Shown here in pieces: positions 53,109-60,051 of a DNA stretch of 64,000 nucleotides. A program made the translations under genes and the position numbers. Under the pieces are notes generated by a model. That model was not told the origin of the DNA. It worked only from the letters and a program-made list of their open reading frames with translations, and searched no databases. Source of the DNA: Weeksellaceae bacterium (GTDB lineage Bacteria > Bacteroidota > Bacteroidia > Flavobacteriales > Weeksellaceae); assembly GCA_019459455.1 (NCBI GenBank), contig JAIBEX010000009.1, positions 186,001-250,000 of the forward strand, given 5' to 3'. Each line of letters starts with the position of its first letter. The first letter of the stretch is position 1.

Positions 53109-53933
53109 ATGAAGTCTAAATTAAGAAAAATTCCCGCTCTAATCTCCGTTCTATTGAAGGAACCATACCTTATAAACCTGATTCTTAAAAGCAATGAGGC
53201 CGCTAAGAATAAATTTCAGCAAAAATACCCCAATATTGTTGCTTTACCCCAGGTGGAGGTAAAAGATTTGTCTGATGAGCTAATGCCGGAAACAATAGAG
53301 AGTTTTCTGATGGACGGAAGTTCACTAATTACCGATCTGCACCTGCTCATGACACTCGCCGGAAGAACAGCGTGCAACAGCTATCTGGAGATAGGCACCT
53401 GGCGCGGCGAAAGCGTATACAATGTGGCCAAACAGGTGTCGGATTGCCTCACCATCAACCTGCCAAAGGAAGAAATGAGACTTTTGGGGTTTCATGAGCA
53501 GTATATCCGTCAGCATGGAGTTCTTTCTGTTCAAAATAAAAATATTTCACATTTGGAGACCAATACCCGCACGTTCGATTTTGGGTCTCTACAGAAAAAA
53601 TTCGATCTTATATTCATTGATGGTGACCATTCCTATGACATGGTTCGCAGTGATACTGAAAAAGTTTTTAAAGACCTGATAAAAGAAAATTCAGTGGTGG
53701 TATGGCATGATTACGCATATAATCCACAAAAAATAAGATACGAAGTCTTTCAGGCTATTCTGGACGGCGTTGGTGAGGAAAACCACCGCCATCTTTACCA
53801 CGTTAAAAATACAATGTGTGCCCTTTTCTGGCGCGACGAGATCAAAACCTCCGTATATGATGCCTATGAAATTCCTGAAAAGATTTACGAAATCAGCCTA
53901 AGGGAAAAAGCCTTCAGCACCGTGCTGAAATAG
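53109..53933 (+). CDS. Class I SAM-dependent methyltransferase
   Basis: 274 residues of the Methyltransf_24 type. An N-terminal helical part (about 1-80) precedes the Rossmann core. Motif I is SYLEIGTWRGESVYN near 98-112. FDLIFIDGDHSYDMVRSDTEKVFKDL near 165-190 is the DGDHxYxxV signature of this group, and VVWHDYAYNPQKIRYEVF follows near 198. It may methylate a sugar or glycolipid, given the neighbouring glycosyltransferase and flippase, but that is inferred. Earlier in-frame ATGs from 52992 lie inside the divergent glycosyltransferase; the ATG at 53109 with its AGGAGG is the best start. Confidence 0.85.
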   Translation: MKSKLRKIPALISVLLKEPYLINLILKSNEAAKNKFQQKYPNIVALPQVEVKDLSDELMPETIESFLMDGSSLITDLHLLMTLAGRTACNSYLEIGTWRGESVYNVAKQVSDCLTINLPKEEMRLLGFHEQYIRQHGVLSVQNKNISHLETNTRTFDFGSLQKKFDLIFIDGDHSYDMVRSDTEKVFKDLIKENSVVVWHDYAYNPQKIRYEVFQAILDGVGEENHRHLYHVKNTMCALFWRDEIKTSVYDAYEIPEKIYEISLREKAFSTVLK

Positions 53934-53954: not shown

Positions 53955-54446
53955 TCAATCAATATAAATTCCGGCCCAGCTTCTCTTCAGCGGGAGCAGG
54001 AAATCGCTTAAAAAAGCGACATAGGAATTCTTTGAAAAGTCAAAAACTTCAATATCACGCGAAATGGTGCCTTCTTTCAAGCCTTTTCTGAACTCCTGAA
54101 GTTTCACCGTCTTAATTTCACCGTTGTCCACAAAACTGGCCTTCATGCGGTCAAAGAGGCCCAATTGAAATTCCTGGTCCAGTGCCTTCATTACGCCACC
54201 CAGGGAATCAATGGAGCAGCCGGACGCGGTTTCTTTTTCCTCATCTACACAAACAACGATAAACTGGTTTTTTTCAATTTTAAAGGAGGAAGATAATGGT
54301 TTTCCGTGCGCTGCCCAACCGGCAAGGAAATCATATAGTTTTTCCATAATTAACTTACTTTCTTTGGGCGTGAAGGGACGGGATGCCGGATAAATAATCA
54401 CCCGGTAATCGTTCGTTTCCACTATGTTGGACTCTTCAATTTTCAT
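53955..54446 (-). CDS. Conserved protein of unknown function (often misnamed ABC transporter ATPase)
   Basis: 163 residues, soluble, mixed alpha/beta. No Walker A, Walker B or signature motif is visible, so it is not an ABC ATPase, although close relatives in flavobacteria carry that name in my memory of annotations. Conserved-looking segments are YRVIIYPASRPFTPKES near 13-29, KIEKNQFIVVCVDEE near 57, GCSIDSLGGVMKALDQEF near 77, and WAGIYID at the end. It is the last gene of the mlaD-Fe-S operon and overlaps the preceding small membrane gene by 11 bases. Confidence 0.8.
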   Translation of the reverse strand: MKIEESNIVETNDYRVIIYPASRPFTPKESKLIMEKLYDFLAGWAAHGKPLSSSFKIEKNQFIVVCVDEEKETASGCSIDSLGGVMKALDQEFQLGLFDRMKASFVDNGEIKTVKLQEFRKGLKEGTISRDIEVFDFSKNSYVAFLSDFLLPLKRSWAGIYID

Positions 54447-54621
54447 TTTTCTGTTTTTTGAAATTATAAAGTGTGAATATGCTTACCAAAATAACGCAAA
54501 CATTACTCGCCATGCGAAGCCAGGTCCCTTTGGGATCTTCGGTTCCCGAAAGGTCCAGGCTGTTCAGGATTAGAAGAACAATTCCTGCAATTAAGAGTAT
54601 GATGGCTACAATGCGCGGCAT
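54436..54621 (-). CDS. Small two-helix membrane protein
   Basis: 61 residues with two hydrophobic segments (about 3-20 and 36-53), an acidic loop GTEDPKGTW between them, and a basic tail FKKQKNEN. No family named. It begins one base after the stop of the CCG-domain gene and overlaps the next gene by 11 bases, so it is an integral part of the operon. Confidence 0.7.
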   Translation of the reverse strand: MPRIVAIILLIAGIVLLILNSLDLSGTEDPKGTWLRMASNVCVILVSIFTLYNFKKQKNEN

Positions 54622-54622
54622 T

Positions 54623-55408
54623 CTAAAGATCCTCAGCTTCGGCTAGAAGCTCTACGATATCCTTCACTTCAACTTCTATATTCTTGTTGAAGTGTTTCAC
54701 ACCGTCGGTCATCATGGTATTGCAGAACGGACATCCCGTTGCGATAATATTCGGGGTTTCCGCCAGCGCTTCTTCGGTTCGCTCCACATTGATATCTCTG
54801 TTGCCTTTCTCCGGCTCTTTGAACATCTGGGCTCCGCCGGCGCCGCAACAGAGACCGTTGGTTTTGCAGCGTTTCATTTCCACGAGTTCGGCGTCTAGTT
54901 TTTCCAGAAGCATACGTGGAGCTTCATATTCACCATTGCCTCTGCCAAGGTAGCAGGGATCGTGAAACGTAATCTTTTTTCCTTTGAAACTGCCGCCTTC
55001 AATCTTCAAACGTCCGTCGTCCATAAGCTGTCTCAGGAACTGGGTGTGGTGAATGACTTCATAATTGCCGCCCAGATTCGGATATTCGTTCTTTATGGTA
55101 TTGAAACAGTGCGGACAGGCCGTCACAATTTTTTTTACATCGTAAGCATTCAGGATTTCAATATTAGTGAGAGCCATCATCTGAAACACAAACTCATTTC
55201 CGGCCCGCTTGGCAGGATCTCCGGTACAGCTTTCTTCCGGCCCTAAAACCGCGAATTCAACGTTGATCTTATTCAATATCTTGCAGAACGCACGCGTGAT
55301 CTTTTTTGCACGGTCGTCAAAACTTCCGGCGCAGCCAACCCAAAACAGAACTTCGGGAGATTTACCTTCGGCAGCGTACTCTGCCATTGTTTTTATTGTG
55401 AAATCCAT
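54623..55408 (-). CDS. CCG-domain Fe-S protein (HdrB/GlcF/LutA-like)
   Basis: 261 residues with two cysteine-rich CCG-type domains. The first carries FWVGCAGSFDD near 22-32, a degenerate ESCTGDP near 60, and TACPHCFNTIKNEYP near 97. The second carries DPCYLGRGN near 147, NGLCCGAGGAQMF near 184, and TGCPFCNTMM near 227. Such domains bind a special [4Fe-4S] cluster for disulfide or hydride chemistry in heterodisulfide reductases, glycolate/lactate oxidases and ETF:quinone reductases. No flavoprotein is adjacent. It probably forms a complex with the membrane Fe-S protein encoded just upstream on the same strand. Confidence 0.88.
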   Translation of the reverse strand: MDFTIKTMAEYAAEGKSPEVLFWVGCAGSFDDRAKKITRAFCKILNKINVEFAVLGPEESCTGDPAKRAGNEFVFQMMALTNIEILNAYDVKKIVTACPHCFNTIKNEYPNLGGNYEVIHHTQFLRQLMDDGRLKIEGGSFKGKKITFHDPCYLGRGNGEYEAPRMLLEKLDAELVEMKRCKTNGLCCGAGGAQMFKEPEKGNRDINVERTEEALAETPNIIATGCPFCNTMMTDGVKHFNKNIEVEVKDIVELLAEAEDL

Positions 55409-55498
55409 TATTTAATTTGCTAATTGGTTGATTTGATGATGCGCTGCTTATTCTAAGTTCAAAAAAAAATCACATCATCCTATTTTCAAATCATCACA

Positions 55499-56827
55499 TT
55501 ATTCTGTTGCCCACTTTAAACGGTCGGCCTGGTTGTACTGCCATGGCGCAGCGTTGTTTTCCACGTTCGTCATCATGAGGTTCAGCTCCTGCGGTGCAGC
55601 CGACTGTTCCATTACCAGAAACCTCCGCATTTCCATAATGATAGATAATGGATCGATTAGTACCGGACAGGCTTCCACACATGCATTACACGTTGTGCAG
55701 GCCCATATTTCCTCTCTTTGGATATGGTCGTCCAGCAGTTTTTTGCCGTCGTCCTCAAACTTTCCGTTTTTATTGATGTTTTTGGCCACTTCCTCAATGC
55801 GGTCGCGGGTATCCATCATGATTTTCCGTGGCGAAAGTTTCTTCCCGGTAATATTTGCTGGACAAACCGCAGTACACCTTCCGCATTCCGTGCAGGAGTA
55901 GGCATTGAGCAACTGAACCTGATTGAGGTCAAAGATGTCGTTTGCTCCAAATTTTTCAGGTATTTCATTTGGATCCGCTTCAGGTGGTGCAGCATAAGGA
56001 TCTGCATTCGGGTCCATCATCAGTTTGATTTCCTTTGTGACGGATGCAAGATTGTTGAATTTTCCTTTAGGCTGAAGGTTGGCATACCACGTATTCGGGA
56101 AAGCCAGTATAATGTGAAGGTGTTTTGAATAATAAAGGTAGTTCATGAAGAACAGAATCCCCACAAAGTGAAACCACCATGCTCCTCTTTCGATCATTTG
56201 GAGTGATCCGTCGCCCAAACTTTGGAAGAGCGGAGCCAACAGGCTGGAGGATACGGGGAAACTGCCGTGCGATGCAAGAACGCCCCGCTGCTGAAGTGCC
56301 CAGTCGGAAGCATTCATGGTGAAAAAAGCCAACATAAGGGCAAATTCAATGATCAGAATCCAATTAGCATCCTGCTTTGGCCATCCGAAGAGTTCCTTCA
56401 TCGTAAGACGCTTCACTCCGTAGAAATTCCTGCGGATAAAGAAAATGACGACTGCGATAACAACAAGGATTGCCAGAATCTCAAGTGTTGCGGTGAAAAT
56501 ACTGTAAAGTGATTCTCCCAAAATTCCTGCGAGAAAACGGTGAGTTCCGAAAATCCCGTCCACAATAATTTCAAGAAGTTCTATGTTGATGATGATAAAC
56601 CCAACATAGACAAAAATATGCAGAATGGCGGCAATTGGACGTTTGCCCATCTTGCTCTGCCCCATCGCAACCTTCGCCATTGTTTTCCAGCGGTCGGCAG
56701 GGCGGTCTGTCCTGTCAATGGCACGGCCAAGTTTAATGTTTCTGTAAATTTCCTTTAAACTCTTGAAAAAAAGCCCGAAACCTACAACAAGGGCAATCAG
56801 GAAGATAATATTGTCAATATATTGCAT
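55499..56827 (-). CDS. Membrane-bound dicluster ferredoxin-like Fe-S protein (HdrE/D or EtfD-like)
   Basis: 442 residues. The N-terminal half has five to six membrane helices of the NarI/HdrE-like cytochrome b type (about 4-22, 66-84, 108-131, 156-173, 214-232). The C-terminal half has two 4Fe-4S motifs, CTECGRCTAVCPAN near 312 and CTTCNACVEACPV near 389. Fusion of a b-type membrane domain with a dicluster ferredoxin occurs in ETF:menaquinone oxidoreductase EtfD and heterodisulfide reductase HdrDE. Here the CCG part is a separate gene. Electrons would pass from a soluble partner to the quinone pool or back. Partner unknown. Confidence 0.87.
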   Translation of the reverse strand: MQYIDNIIFLIALVVGFGLFFKSLKEIYRNIKLGRAIDRTDRPADRWKTMAKVAMGQSKMGKRPIAAILHIFVYVGFIIINIELLEIIVDGIFGTHRFLAGILGESLYSIFTATLEILAILVVIAVVIFFIRRNFYGVKRLTMKELFGWPKQDANWILIIEFALMLAFFTMNASDWALQQRGVLASHGSFPVSSSLLAPLFQSLGDGSLQMIERGAWWFHFVGILFFMNYLYYSKHLHIILAFPNTWYANLQPKGKFNNLASVTKEIKLMMDPNADPYAAPPEADPNEIPEKFGANDIFDLNQVQLLNAYSCTECGRCTAVCPANITGKKLSPRKIMMDTRDRIEEVAKNINKNGKFEDDGKKLLDDHIQREEIWACTTCNACVEACPVLIDPLSIIMEMRRFLVMEQSAAPQELNLMMTNVENNAAPWQYNQADRLKWATE

Positions 56828-56840
56828 ATTGAAAAGGTGT

Positions 56841-57791
56841 TTAGTCTTTTGTATTCTTCCCGAAAACGGAGAAGTTGAGGTAACGTTTAGGGTTGGCTTT
56901 TAAATCCTCTATTAATTTGTTCAGATTGTTTGAGGCTTCGTTCAGGTTGTTGTAAAGTTCTTCGTCTTTAATCACTTTCCCAAGGGAACCTTCGCCTCTG
57001 TCTATACCTCCGATCACATTGTTCAGTTTGCTTACGGTTGCATCAAGGTTTGCAACAGTCTGGTTCAGTTTCTGGGTGTCGATGCTTTCGGCAAGACGTC
57101 CGTATTTATCCACTGCGCTGTTTGCTGAGATCATGGTAACATTCGCATTGTCCAGAACCCTTTGCAGGCGAGGGTCATTATTGGCTACCAATGCATTTGC
57201 CTGCCGCGAGGTCCCCTCAAAGGAGGCCACTGTTCTGTTCAGACTTAATAGCAAGGCACGGATCTCTGCACGGTTTTTCTCGTCCAGAACCTGATTCGCA
57301 CTGTAAGCCAGTGAATCCACTTTCTGTAGGACATCCTGCAGTTTATCCTTTACAGGTTCTACCTGCTGGCCGAGGTTGTTAATTAATGAGGGCTTGTAGT
57401 TCCCCACAAGCGTATCTCCGTCTTTGGCAACAGCTCCTTTGTAAGCCAGGTTGATGCGCATTTCCTTGGCAGCCATAATTCCGGGTTCAAAAACCTCAAC
57501 CACCGATTCCTTTGAAAAGGAAAAGTCATTGTCCACCGCGAACGCTACAACAAAATGTACGGCTCCGTTCTTATCGGTAATCGGGATGATCCTGTCCACC
57601 TGACCCACTTTCAGGCCGTTGATCGACACTTTACTTGCAGGCTCCACTCCCTCCACATTGCTGTACTTTGCGTAGAAGATGTTATCTGTTGTAAAAAGGC
57701 TTTTCCCCTTCATAAACTGAAAAATCAGTACGAAGCCCACAATAGACAGTACCGCAATCAATCCTGCTTTTATTTCTTTTGAAAATTTCAT
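56841..57791 (-). CDS. MlaD/MCE-domain protein
   Basis: 316 residues: one N-terminal helix (about 8-26), an MCE domain at about 37-115 (YAKYSNVEGVEPASKVSINGLKVGQVDRI, FSKESVVEVFEPGIMAAKEMRINL), then a long helical part with coiled coils (VNSANQVL-like heptads to about residue 300). MCE proteins form periplasmic hexamers or tubes that carry phospholipids between membranes with an MlaE/F ABC transporter. The ABC components are not in the window. It heads the operon that continues with the Fe-S genes, 13 bases apart. Confidence 0.92.
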   Translation of the reverse strand: MKFSKEIKAGLIAVLSIVGFVLIFQFMKGKSLFTTDNIFYAKYSNVEGVEPASKVSINGLKVGQVDRIIPITDKNGAVHFVVAFAVDNDFSFSKESVVEVFEPGIMAAKEMRINLAYKGAVAKDGDTLVGNYKPSLINNLGQQVEPVKDKLQDVLQKVDSLAYSANQVLDEKNRAEIRALLLSLNRTVASFEGTSRQANALVANNDPRLQRVLDNANVTMISANSAVDKYGRLAESIDTQKLNQTVANLDATVSKLNNVIGGIDRGEGSLGKVIKDEELYNNLNEASNNLNKLIEDLKANPKRYLNFSVFGKNTKD

Positions 57792-57815: not shown

Positions 57816-57849
57816 CAAATATAAGATATTTTATCCATCTCCTTTTCAA
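57816..57849 (-). promoter_or_regulatory. Promoter of the mlaD-Fe-S operon
   Basis: On the minus strand TTG (57847-57849), 23 bases, then TATATTTG (57816-57823). The box ends 24 bases before the mlaD ATG. Confidence 0.6.
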
Positions 57850-57860
57850 CAAAATCATTC

Positions 57861-57890
57861 CAACAAAAAAGCGGCTGGAAGGCCGCTTTT
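57861..57890 (-). terminator. Rho-independent terminator of the PpiD-like gene
   Basis: On the minus strand AAAAGCGGC and GCCGCTTTT pair perfectly (9 bp) around a 6-base loop and are followed by a T-run. It lies 10 bases past the stop at 57901. Confidence 0.9.
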
Positions 57891-57900
57891 CGTTTTATGG

Positions 57901-60051
57901 TTATGGTTGGGTAATTCCTTTGTCCCAGACCTCAATTCTGTAGTCTTTTATATCTGCATTATCCTGCAGGCTCTTCATGAAGGACTGCGTGAAGAAATTG
58001 GAATTCTGCCCGGTAATCGATTCGGTCATCTGCTTGATGTCACCGGGCTGTTTGTTCAGTGTTTCAGATTTTTTCAGAACTACATAAACGCCGGTCATAC
58101 CTTCAACCGGGTTGGATACCTTTCCTTTGGCTACTCCGAAGGCCGCACCAGCTACCCGAGGTTCCATTGCTCCAGCAAGTTGTGGATTCAAAAGATTAAC
58201 CTGCGCAGACTGTTTTGCTGTTCCAAACAGTTTTGCTACCTGATCCAGCGTTTCGGCTTTCGCAGAGGCTATTTTAGCACTGATCTTCTTGGCTGCAAGC
58301 TGATTTTTCACAATCGGTTCAATTTGCTCTCTTACAGATTCAGGATCAGCAAGACCTTTTTCCTGTCTTCCGTTCAGGATCGCAACTACGCGGTCACCGG
58401 TTCCTTCAACAACAAAAAATTCGGTATCTCCTTTCTTTCTTTTCTTATCAAAAGCCCACGCTATGATTTCTGAATCTTTTGGAGTTCCCAATCCCTGGAT
58501 TTGGCCTTCGAATCTTTTTACACTTTTCGGATTGCTGAAGTTGTAATTGCTTTTCTTGGCCATGTTTGCAAAATCATTGAAGGATTTTCCCTGAGCCTGC
58601 TGTATAAAACGTCTCGCGTTTTTATCGACCGCTGCTTCCGTTTGGTCAGACGGCATAATTGCTTTAACCACATTGGCCAGTTTATAGCCCATTGCCCCGG
58701 ACTTCTTATCTTCAATGTTGATGATATGATATCCAAAAGATGATTCCTGAACTCCTGTAGCTCCTTTCGGGTTGCTCATCAGGAAATTAAGGTAAGCAGG
58801 GTCGAATGGAGAAGCCGGAGTTACCCAACCCACACTTCCGTTTCTTTCAACCGCTCCTGGTTCATCAGAAATCTTTAACCCTTCTGCAAACGCAGCCGAA
58901 TTTCCTTTGATAACCGCATATAAACTGTCGGCAGTTTTCTTGGCCTGATCTTTCGTTCTGGTAGCAGTAGATCTTTGTGCTCCCTGATAAGAAATCAGAA
59001 TATGTTTTGAAAGTACTGAATCCGATGGCTTACGATCAAGCATCTTGGAAAGTACGTATACATTCTGCTCTTTATATGGTCCTGTAATCTGTCCCGGGGC
59101 AGCTCCTTTAACCCATTCTCTTATGGTTGGCGGCAATTCGTTTTCATTCAGATACCTGTTATCGAAAGGCATATCAGAATTCAGCATTACAAACATGGAA
59201 TCGCTGGCTGCGTTCTGAAAGTTTTCTCTAACTCCACCCTGATCCGTACCACCTGTAAGAAGATTGGTGATTTCCTTTAGTTTGGCGTCATCGTCAGCTT
59301 TACTTGCCTGGGCCGGGAAAAATACCACGCCTAAGTTCACACTTGGATCTGTTTTATAAGTATTGGGGTACTGTTTAATATAAGCGGCCAAATCCTCGGC
59401 TGTAACTTTTATCGGATTTTTCTGCAAATAGGAGGCATAGTCAACTTTTACGAAATCGATATTGGCAAGGTTATCCCGCTGCTTCATCATTTCTTCAACT
59501 TCCTTCTTGCCTGTCGTAATTCCGGCTGTGATGTTGGAAAACAACTGACGGGCCATCATACGGTACTCAATTGACCTTCGCATCTTCAGCCACTGGTTCA
59601 GCGCCTGTACTTCGCCACCGTTCTGCAGACCTTCCACCTGCTTCTTGATTTCCTGGAGTCTGAAGTTTCCTTTTTCGTCAAAATTCTGCTGGTTCTGCGC
59701 AAACATAGGATCATACTGCAGCTGACTCCAGAAAAAATCATCGGTCATTTCCAGACCCATCTTCTCGAACTGCTGTTTGATGAGCTTACTCTGCACCATC
59801 ATTTGCCATGCCTGCTCTTCCATTCCGGTAGCGGGCTGACCCTGCTGTTGCGCCTGCTGCTGCAGGACAAAGAGCTGATCGGAAAACTCTTCTCGCGTAA
59901 TTTTTTCACCATTAACCTTACCCAGGATATTTGGATCTTTTCCGAACAGTGAATCAAATGTATCCGGATTCACCAGGAATGCAAGTAATGCAAGGGCAAT
60001 GATCCCCATCAGTAAAATTGGTCGTTTTCTTATTTCGCCTAAAATTGCCAT
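57901..60051 (-). CDS. PpiD-like periplasmic peptidyl-prolyl isomerase / SurA-N chaperone
   Basis: 716 residues. One membrane helix (about 11-28, ILLMGIIALALLAFLV) anchors a large periplasmic part. A SurA-N-like helical region spans about 38-260 (EKITREEFSDQLFVLQQQAQQQG, QPATGMEEQAWQMMVQSKLI). A parvulin rotamase domain follows at about 345-450 (LSKHILISYQG, GSVGWVTPASPFDPAYLNFLM, SSFGYHIINIEDKKSG), and a C-terminal partial repeat ends at residue 716. PpiD proteins help outer-membrane and secreted proteins fold after translocation. It is divergent from lon; both deal with misfolded protein. Confidence 0.92.
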   Translation of the reverse strand: MAILGEIRKRPILLMGIIALALLAFLVNPDTFDSLFGKDPNILGKVNGEKITREEFSDQLFVLQQQAQQQGQPATGMEEQAWQMMVQSKLIKQQFEKMGLEMTDDFFWSQLQYDPMFAQNQQNFDEKGNFRLQEIKKQVEGLQNGGEVQALNQWLKMRRSIEYRMMARQLFSNITAGITTGKKEVEEMMKQRDNLANIDFVKVDYASYLQKNPIKVTAEDLAAYIKQYPNTYKTDPSVNLGVVFFPAQASKADDDAKLKEITNLLTGGTDQGGVRENFQNAASDSMFVMLNSDMPFDNRYLNENELPPTIREWVKGAAPGQITGPYKEQNVYVLSKMLDRKPSDSVLSKHILISYQGAQRSTATRTKDQAKKTADSLYAVIKGNSAAFAEGLKISDEPGAVERNGSVGWVTPASPFDPAYLNFLMSNPKGATGVQESSFGYHIINIEDKKSGAMGYKLANVVKAIMPSDQTEAAVDKNARRFIQQAQGKSFNDFANMAKKSNYNFSNPKSVKRFEGQIQGLGTPKDSEIIAWAFDKKRKKGDTEFFVVEGTGDRVVAILNGRQEKGLADPESVREQIEPIVKNQLAAKKISAKIASAKAETLDQVAKLFGTAKQSAQVNLLNPQLAGAMEPRVAGAAFGVAKGKVSNPVEGMTGVYVVLKKSETLNKQPGDIKQMTESITGQNSNFFTQSFMKSLQDNADIKDYRIEVWDKGITQP

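Follow-up and report, generated by a model that had tools for sequence, protein, structure and literature searches.

The gene pair described here resembles EtfD of Mycobacterium smegmatis and M. tuberculosis (Rv0338c; PDB 9ojn) in its domain order, 18 Fe-S ligands, heme His residues, and quinone-site Phe residues. FadF of Bacillus and DgcB of Pseudomonas are EtfD homologues linked to ETF, as is proposed below for this pair. HdrDE of Methanosarcina likewise consists of two subunits, a membrane cytochrome and a CCG part. EMO of Syntrophus aciditrophicus, the ETF:methylmenaquinone oxidoreductase described in PMC8805022, has the same proposed reaction from ETF to menaquinone. The gene in front of the pair encodes a protein that, like MlaD of the E. 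coli Mla system, has a single MCE domain and an N-terminal transmembrane helix.

Cofactor ligands of the Fe-S gene pair

The window is the whole stretch of 64,000 nucleotides of Weeksellaceae DNA that was analysed. An ORF check of the window recovered all five minus-strand ORFs where the first-pass annotation had placed them. These encode an MCE-domain protein (56841-57791; 316 aa), FES (55499-56827; 442 aa), CCG (54623-55408; 261 aa), a small hydrophobic protein of 61 aa taken from the ORF listing (54436-54621), and D163, a conserved protein of 163 aa with unassigned function (53955-54446). In this order, they are separated by 13, 90, 1, and -11 bp, and a convergent plus-strand ORF ends at 53933. 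FES comprises a membrane heme-b domain and two [4Fe-4S] clusters, corresponding to the N-terminal half of EtfD, and CCG comprises two CCG domains (PF02754, 108.7 bits), corresponding to the C-terminal half. The membrane part had been annotated as NarI-type; this was not borne out by Pfam, which gave no NarI match at E<=0.1, and the domain was recognised through EtfD instead.

Using M. smegmatis EtfD (9ojn) as the reference, FES and CCG together aligned with it end to end, with the cut after EtfD residue ~476. FES covered EtfD residues 33-476 (E 2.8e-34) and CCG covered residues 479-744 (E 5.6e-77; 134 identical residues among 255 aligned). All 18 Fe-S ligands, namely 17 Cys and His583 of the EtfD numbering, were conserved. 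The eight Cys of the cubane clusters D3 and D4 were all found in FES (Cys312/315/318/387 and Cys322/377/380/383). CCG contained all four Cys of D1 (Cys26/61/98/101) together with Thr62, the counterpart of EtfD Thr539, and all six ligands of D2 (Cys152/187/188/226/229 and His100, which corresponds to His583); by analogy with EtfD, D1 is predicted to be a linear [3Fe-4S] cluster. The heme-b axial ligands His78 and His241 of EtfD correspond to His70 and His238 of FES. Both quinone-site Phe residues and two of the three heme Arg residues were conserved. Furthermore, a survey of 148 Bacteroidota genomes yielded 94 EtfD regions (40 split and 54 fused); the complete D1 and D2 ligand set was present in 89 of these 94 homologues, and each heme His site was also His in 89, the rest being gapped or outside the alignment.

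The first-pass annotation had proposed either a split EtfD or HdrDE. A thiol/disulfide reductase of the HdrDE type would fit the two-subunit architecture, and EtfD is homologous to HdrDE according to PMC13083937. However, Thr62 stands in place of the catalytic bridging Cys of Hdr, an extra cluster-binding residue, and the EtfD-specific His100 completes the second cluster; in EtfD, the His matched by His100 coordinates D2 (PMC13083937). CCG also scored 262 bits to EtfD, whereas HdrB chains, used for the comparison rather than HdrD, gave 32 and 23 bits. We regard an HdrDE-like activity as scarcely credible. The full-length match to 9ojn, the complete Fe-S ligands, and both heme His residues upheld the first of the two proposals, and the identification of the pair as EtfD (ETF:menaquinone oxidoreductase, EMO) in two subunits is well supported at the level of sequence.

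In the tree, the 40 split proteins fell on one side of a branch with support of 97/92, and the split is most simply explained by one event in the ancestor of these 40 sampled genomes. The labels split and fused were set by family; two f15 proteins were counted as fused despite their shorter length, those of G110 (313-aa frame) and G067 (481-aa frame). Long branches were seen for f13, f15, f27, and G007 of f4, the last lying inside the split group. The positions of FES and CCG were taken from single-sequence BLAST. The two genes were apart from each other in three f4 genomes and 1.8 kb apart in G115, and several other genomes had a small gene between them.

ETF as the probable electron donor

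ETF was found in 147 of the 148 genomes, EtfD in 94, and ETF-QO (PF05187) in 26, and ETF-QO and EtfD occurred together in just two (Fisher p 1e-10 by genome and 0.008 by genus). A PF05187 domain search of the genome carrying the window gave no match; this genome has one EtfBA pair, near a thiolase, and four acyl-CoA dehydrogenase matches. Since no ETF-QO match was obtained for 121 of the 147 ETF-bearing genomes, the route by which ETF electrons reach menaquinone in the sampled Bacteroidota is a real question, and the EtfD reading would assign this step to a specific gene pair. ETF is not always dependent on either protein, because 29 of the 148 genomes have ETF with neither EtfD nor ETF-QO.

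Gene order also bears on the donor. In f16, genes for an acyl-CoA dehydrogenase, a thioesterase, EtfB, EtfA, FES, and CCG were consecutive in all three genomes (Pfam was run on one of the three). Of the 94 regions, 17 had ETF genes on the EtfD strand no more than 6 kb away (f15, 10/10; f16, 3/3; f13, 2/2; f27, 1/1; f4, 1/6). On the strength of the near-exclusion of ETF-QO, the f16 run, and these 17 regions, ETF is probably the electron donor and menaquinone probably the acceptor; the earlier suggestion of electron transfer between the two is thus well supported by genome comparison.

A flavoprotein other than ETF might instead reduce the Fe-S pair, in the manner of GlpC, GlcF, LutB, and LdhH with their own dehydrogenases. 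CCG and Fer4 modules serve many dehydrogenases; CCG had 11 NCBIfam matches, all under the cut-off, including LdhH, GlpC, and TfrB; and no ETF gene was found within 6 kb of EtfD in the genome carrying the window or in 77 of the 94 regions as a whole. Against such a donor stand the full-length EtfD match with every ligand, the EtfBA-FES-CCG run, and the ETF-QO near-exclusion, and we consider it very unlikely.

The MCE gene and other neighbours

The MCE-domain protein, which has a long helical C-terminal part, scored 33.9 bits against PF02470 (cut-off 25.1), placing it in the MCE superfamily, and was the sole match to this family in its genome. Against TIGR04430, which represents MlaD proper, it scored 43.4 bits, below the equivalog cut-off of 135. 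Its AF2 model (mean pLDDT 59; about 72-89 for residues 41-130) was too poor for a structure search. The permease and ATPase genes mlaE-mlaF of the same genome (G000:C14:256461) are ~13 kb from the MCE gene. A tblastn search with two MlaE queries detected no MlaE permease gene around any of the 19 EtfD-linked MCE genes or in any of 80 named relatives; the MCE protein may partner with the distant MlaEF.

The first-pass annotation had suggested a similar gene order in other flavobacteria, and this proved correct. The MCE gene was located just upstream of EtfD, in the same direction, in 19 of 19 genomes of families f1, f2, f6, and f7, whose names were inferred from named relatives and which formed a group supported at 99/94 in the CCG tree. 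The gap was <=30 bp in 16 of the 19. Among the 80 closest named relatives, MCE was within 1 kb upstream in 78, and the contigs ended in the other two. By comparison, of the 18 window genes of at least 100 aa within ~10 kb, those for MCE, FES, CCG, D163, and one glycosyltransferase were the only ones recurring near EtfD in f2.

The tight spacing suggests that MCE is co-transcribed with the EtfD genes. Upstream of MCE lies a SurA_N/rotamase chaperone gene (57901-60051, minus strand), in the position held by an amidase gene in f2 genomes. Between the two is a 10-pair terminator-like hairpin of unassigned strand (57867-57890); the scan listed it on the plus strand only, and its minus-strand stem closes with a six-T run. 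The window had 13 such terminator-like sites versus 7.3 in shuffles. A candidate promoter on the minus strand, TAtaTTTG (57816-57823), resembles the Bacteroidetes -7 promoter element; counting both strands, the window has 66 matches of this kind, which makes the candidate a weak one. A sigma-70 scan gave no clear promoter excess (12 versus a mean of 9.9, sd 2.5).

Retention of the MCE-EtfD adjacency in four families and nearly all named relatives, where most other neighbours have changed, together with the narrow gap, could indicate functional coupling. MCE and MlaEF would bring lipids of the outer membrane or the outside to the inner membrane, the acyl chains freed there would be beta-oxidised, EtfD would remove the electrons, and shared expression would match supply to oxidation. 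There is a parallel without assigned meaning in alphaproteobacterial MCE genes, which adjoin NDUFA12 as reported in PMC5561183. However, MCE proteins of the same group occur with amidase and LptD and without EtfD in f3, f5, and f9; no MCE gene was beside CCG in 21 of the 40 split genomes, and none was near the 54 fused EtfD except one at 7 kb (MCE distances in this count being measured from FES); and the flavobacterial cluster has no recognised fatty-acid gene. Such coupling seems rather unlikely. A reading in which MCE and the two-subunit EtfD form one functional unit in Weeksellaceae and Flavobacteriaceae, with lipid retrieved by MCE/MlaEF passed to beta-oxidation at the inner membrane and EtfD co-expressed as its electron exit, is doubtful; if true, envelope lipid turnover would be coupled to respiration.

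Because this MCE group also occurs with LptD and amidase where EtfD is absent, an LptD/amidase/MCE envelope cluster probably joined EtfD once, with MCE as its last gene. The position of MCE at the end of that cluster is a simpler reason for the order than a link between lipid import and fatty-acid oxidation. An older MCE-EtfD linkage may alternatively have been lost in f3 and others. The MCE tree had 39 rows and drew on 20 further MCE regions from 14 genomes, among the matches listed, of which 19 were usable (4 amidase-linked and 15 MlaEF-linked), with G055 added as MlaEF-linked. This quick method placed the window protein among amidase-linked proteins and did not resolve these from the EtfD-linked ones (3 changes); the case for a single joining therefore comes from the CCG tree.

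The two genes downstream of CCG differ in distribution. The 61-aa gene had been counted as part of the unit; it was seen solely in its own genome, being present in 0 of 93 other EtfD regions and 0 of 80 named relatives, so that this detail was not borne out. D163 was found in all 37 class-level genomes and in all three f16 genomes. It was considered as an EtfD subunit and rejected, as it also occurs in 8 genomes without EtfD and is unlinked to EtfD in several; D163 is a wider family and not EtfD-specific. Residues W44, H47, and G76-C77-S78-x-D80 were invariant among 29 aligned members. The AF2 model (pLDDT 92) predicts a ferredoxin-like fold, and VIA-align gave a top Z of 6.8, to common ferredoxin-like folds, a result that is uninformative. 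D163 had no Pfam match at E<=0.1 and no Foldseek match at E<=0.001, profile searches of Pfam and PDB with the family gave no convincing match, and its neighbours at unlinked loci revealed no clear partner.

Taken together, the following account is likely as a whole; it draws directly on homology, cofactor ligands, phyletic pattern, gene order, and tree groups. Acyl-CoA dehydrogenases would load ETF, which in its reduced form would donate electrons to the CCG subunit at its two unusual clusters. From there the electrons would travel via the membrane subunit, with its two [4Fe-4S] clusters and its heme b, to menaquinone. EtfD would have been split once, and the LptD/amidase/MCE cluster would have come to abut it in the ancestor that Weeksellaceae and Flavobacteriaceae share with two related families. 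MCE would since then have stayed co-directional with EtfD, usually within 30 bp, its ABC permease and ATPase (MlaE-MlaF) being encoded elsewhere.

Comparison with known systems

In the open-licence PMC literature, searched by title and abstract start, we found no paper on EtfD in Bacteroidota or on the MCE-EtfD link. A plasmid search returned 70 records, every one at <60% identity. The linear [3Fe-4S] motif would now extend to Bacteroidota, a phylum not among the examples in the Discussion of PMC13083937. An EtfD in two chains is convenient for reconstitution, and the odd, highly conserved MCE-EtfD gene order becomes a testable question.

HdrE is a cytochrome and HdrD carries the Fer4 and CCG domains; HdrDE is therefore cut elsewhere than the window pair, and Methanosarcina HdrDE has a catalytic Cys where the window CCG has Thr. 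In contrast to E. coli MlaD, the window MCE protein is below the TIGR04430 cut-off and has no MlaE or MlaF alongside. The Syntrophus enzyme, likened here by description, is described as diheme (PMC8805022), whereas alignment with EtfD gives one heme His pair in the window protein. FadF and DgcB are without the D1 cysteines according to PMC13083937, so D1 is not universal to the EtfD/EMO group, whereas the window CCG has them. Compared with M. smegmatis EtfD, the window pair consists of two polypeptides and has an MCE gene in front. Speaking against the account above, it has Leu in place of the heme-carboxylate Arg150 and lacks the C-terminal extension, a disordered region that AlphaFold3 puts in contact with ETF in the M. 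smegmatis protein (PMC13083937).

Five-gene unit and its Fe-S pair

All five ORFs claimed by the first-pass annotation were found on the minus strand at 53955-57791: an MCE gene (56841-57791), FES (55499-56827), CCG (54623-55408), a 61-aa gene (54436-54621), and a 163-aa gene (53955-54446), with intergenic gaps of 13, 90, 1, and -11 bp. The MCE gene is separated from the chaperone gene before it by a hairpin (57867-57890), and a convergent ORF marks the downstream end of the unit. The 61-aa protein was absent from every other genome examined (other EtfD regions and named relatives). The genome (2.59 Mb, 99.8% complete) probably belongs near Chryseobacterium, Epilithonimonas, and Kaistella, judging from its closest named relatives.

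The two Fe-S proteins were compared with the ETF:menaquinone oxidoreductase EtfD of M. smegmatis, whose cofactor ligands were taken from its structure paper (PMC13083937). The 442-aa FES protein covered EtfD residues 33-476 in two stretches (E 2.8e-34), and the 261-aa CCG protein covered residues 479-744 (E 5.6e-77; 134 of 255 aligned residues identical). Of the residues named in that paper, the alignment showed that all eight cubane cysteines are kept in the pair, and that the CCG protein keeps the four cysteines of cluster D1 and the five cysteines and His583 (EtfD numbering) of cluster D2. Both heme histidines were retained in FES; Arg137, Arg306, Phe85, and Phe230 were also retained, and Arg150 was replaced by Leu. 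EtfD Thr539 corresponds to Thr62 of the CCG protein, where Hdr has an extra cysteine. Because the EtfD ligands are conserved and Thr62 stands in place of that cysteine, the first-pass reading of the pair as EtfD or HdrDE is upheld for EtfD and given up for HdrDE. Judged by sequence, the pair is a predicted EtfD split into two chains. Among the 94 homologues in the phylum, the D1 and D2 ligands were complete in 89, 54 of them with Thr at the Thr539 position, which varies over the whole set (T 56, N 23, C 10, S 3, A 2).

EtfD is one chain in 54 of the 94 genomes (usually 660-715 aa) and split in 40. In the CCG tree, a supported branch (97/92) set the 40 split proteins apart from the others, corresponding to one change, and the halves were at most 1.9 kb apart on one strand in 37 genomes. 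In three f4 genomes (L037, L040, and L121 of G033, G091, and G126), the halves occupy separate genome sites; the 163-aa gene stays with CCG even there. This 163-aa family occurs in 50 of 148 genomes, near EtfD in 30 of the 40 split genomes, and also in 8 genomes without EtfD, so that an obligate EtfD subunit was ruled out. Its high-confidence predicted model is ferredoxin-like, with invariant W, H, and GCSxD residues; a structure search gave no close structural relative.

ETF as the probable electron donor

Among the 148 genomes of the phylum, ETF was found in 147, EtfD in 94, and ETF-QO in 26. EtfD alone occurred in 92, ETF-QO alone in 24, both in 2 (G005 and G087 of f13), and neither in 30, of which 29 still carry ETF. 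The Fisher p of this avoidance was 1e-10 when genomes were counted and 0.008 when the 83 genera were; since related genomes are not independent samples, the genus-level value is the fairer one. Within f15 there is a natural switch: the 10 genomes of genus g40 carry EtfD without ETF-QO, and the 20 of genus g35 the reverse.

Same-strand ETF genes no more than 6 kb from EtfD were located in 17 of 94 regions (f15 10, f16 3, f13 2, f27 1, f4 1); the other 77, including the window genome, had none within that distance. The order in all three f16 genomes was acyl-CoA dehydrogenase, thioesterase, EtfB, EtfA, FES, and CCG, in the split form (names by Pfam from one genome), and that in both f13 genomes was EtfB-EtfA-EtfD. 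Gene order thus agrees in part with ETF as the donor. The window genome has a single EtfBA pair, close to a thiolase on contig C19, and four acyl-CoA dehydrogenase matches. Taken together, there is a strong case that the Fe-S pair would carry out a respiratory step from ETF, and EtfD is a candidate route for this step in this part of Bacteroidota.

MCE gene beside EtfD

All 19 genomes of f1, f2, f6, and f7, a single group in the CCG tree (99/94), carry the MCE gene upstream of FES in the same orientation. The MCE gene was also at most 1 kb upstream in 78 of the 80 best-matching named loci listed (Weeksellaceae, Flavobacteriaceae, and unnamed MAGs of that kind), the contigs of the other two ending first; the first-pass suggestion of a similar order in other flavobacteria was thereby confirmed. 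Sixteen of the 19 genomes have an MCE-FES gap of -1 to 30 bp; two others have gaps of 113 and 352 bp, and in G088 a 199-aa ORF stands in a gap of about 620 bp. When 18 window genes of at least 100 aa within about 10 kb were compared with the 14 f2 genomes, only MCE, FES, CCG, the 163-aa gene, and one glycosyltransferase recurred near EtfD, which indicates a conserved island and not general synteny. No MCE gene was found beside CCG in the other 21 split genomes, nor within 1.5 kb of the separate FES gene in the three f4 genomes. The MCE-EtfD link is real as gene order.

In 16 genomes of f2, f6, and f7, the order was LptD (divergent), amidase, MCE, FES, and CCG (LptD_2 and Amidase_3 identified by Pfam on one genome). 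The LptD/amidase/MCE set occurred without EtfD in G002 (f3), G064 (f5), and G072 (f9), and its genes were close together but rearranged in G007 (f4). Among the 80 best-matching named loci listed, an amidase was upstream in 57, Weeksella and Vaginella included, and a SurA_N/rotamase chaperone took its place in 20, the Chryseobacterium group. In a quick tree, the 19 EtfD-linked MCE proteins and the 4 of G002, G064, G072, and G007 formed one group (SH-aLRT 99), distinct from the 16 MCE proteins encoded at MlaEF loci; the tree did not separate the two kinds within the group. The linkage may be older and have been lost in other lineages; most simply, the MCE gene would be the end of an envelope cluster, with EtfD added to it in the common ancestor of these 19 genomes. 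Such joining gives the MCE-EtfD link a historical explanation.

An MCE protein needs a permease/ATPase pair. A MlaE-MlaF pair lies about 13 kb from the MCE gene (contig C14, 256365-257929; L156, 8366-9930), with a sugar transferase gene upstream and no adjoining MCE gene. Each of the 19 genomes has as many MlaE as MCE matches, which fits a trans-encoded MlaEF transporter that may serve the MCE protein.

Variants and known systems

In L126 (G029) and L041 (G088) of f2 genus g4, CCG has A, S, D, and S in place of its D1 cysteines, all four being lost, and keeps D2, matching what is reported for FadF/DgcB. Their units are also looser, with a larger MCE-FES gap and the 163-aa gene elsewhere. Cluster D1 seems to have been lost separately here, within Flavobacteriaceae. 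All ten fused EtfD proteins of g40 (L086-L094, L096) have, as in Hdr, Cys at the Thr539 position, plus the D2 His, and could hold a different D1 cluster. In f13 (L097 of G005, L095 of G087), EtfB-EtfA has an EtfD-like gene on either side (428 and 679-701 aa), and the D1 cysteines are gone from the better-matching protein. Neither split EtfD in Bacteroidota nor the MCE-EtfD link was found described in the open-licence literature searched. With its two chains, the split EtfD gives a known enzyme a new architecture.
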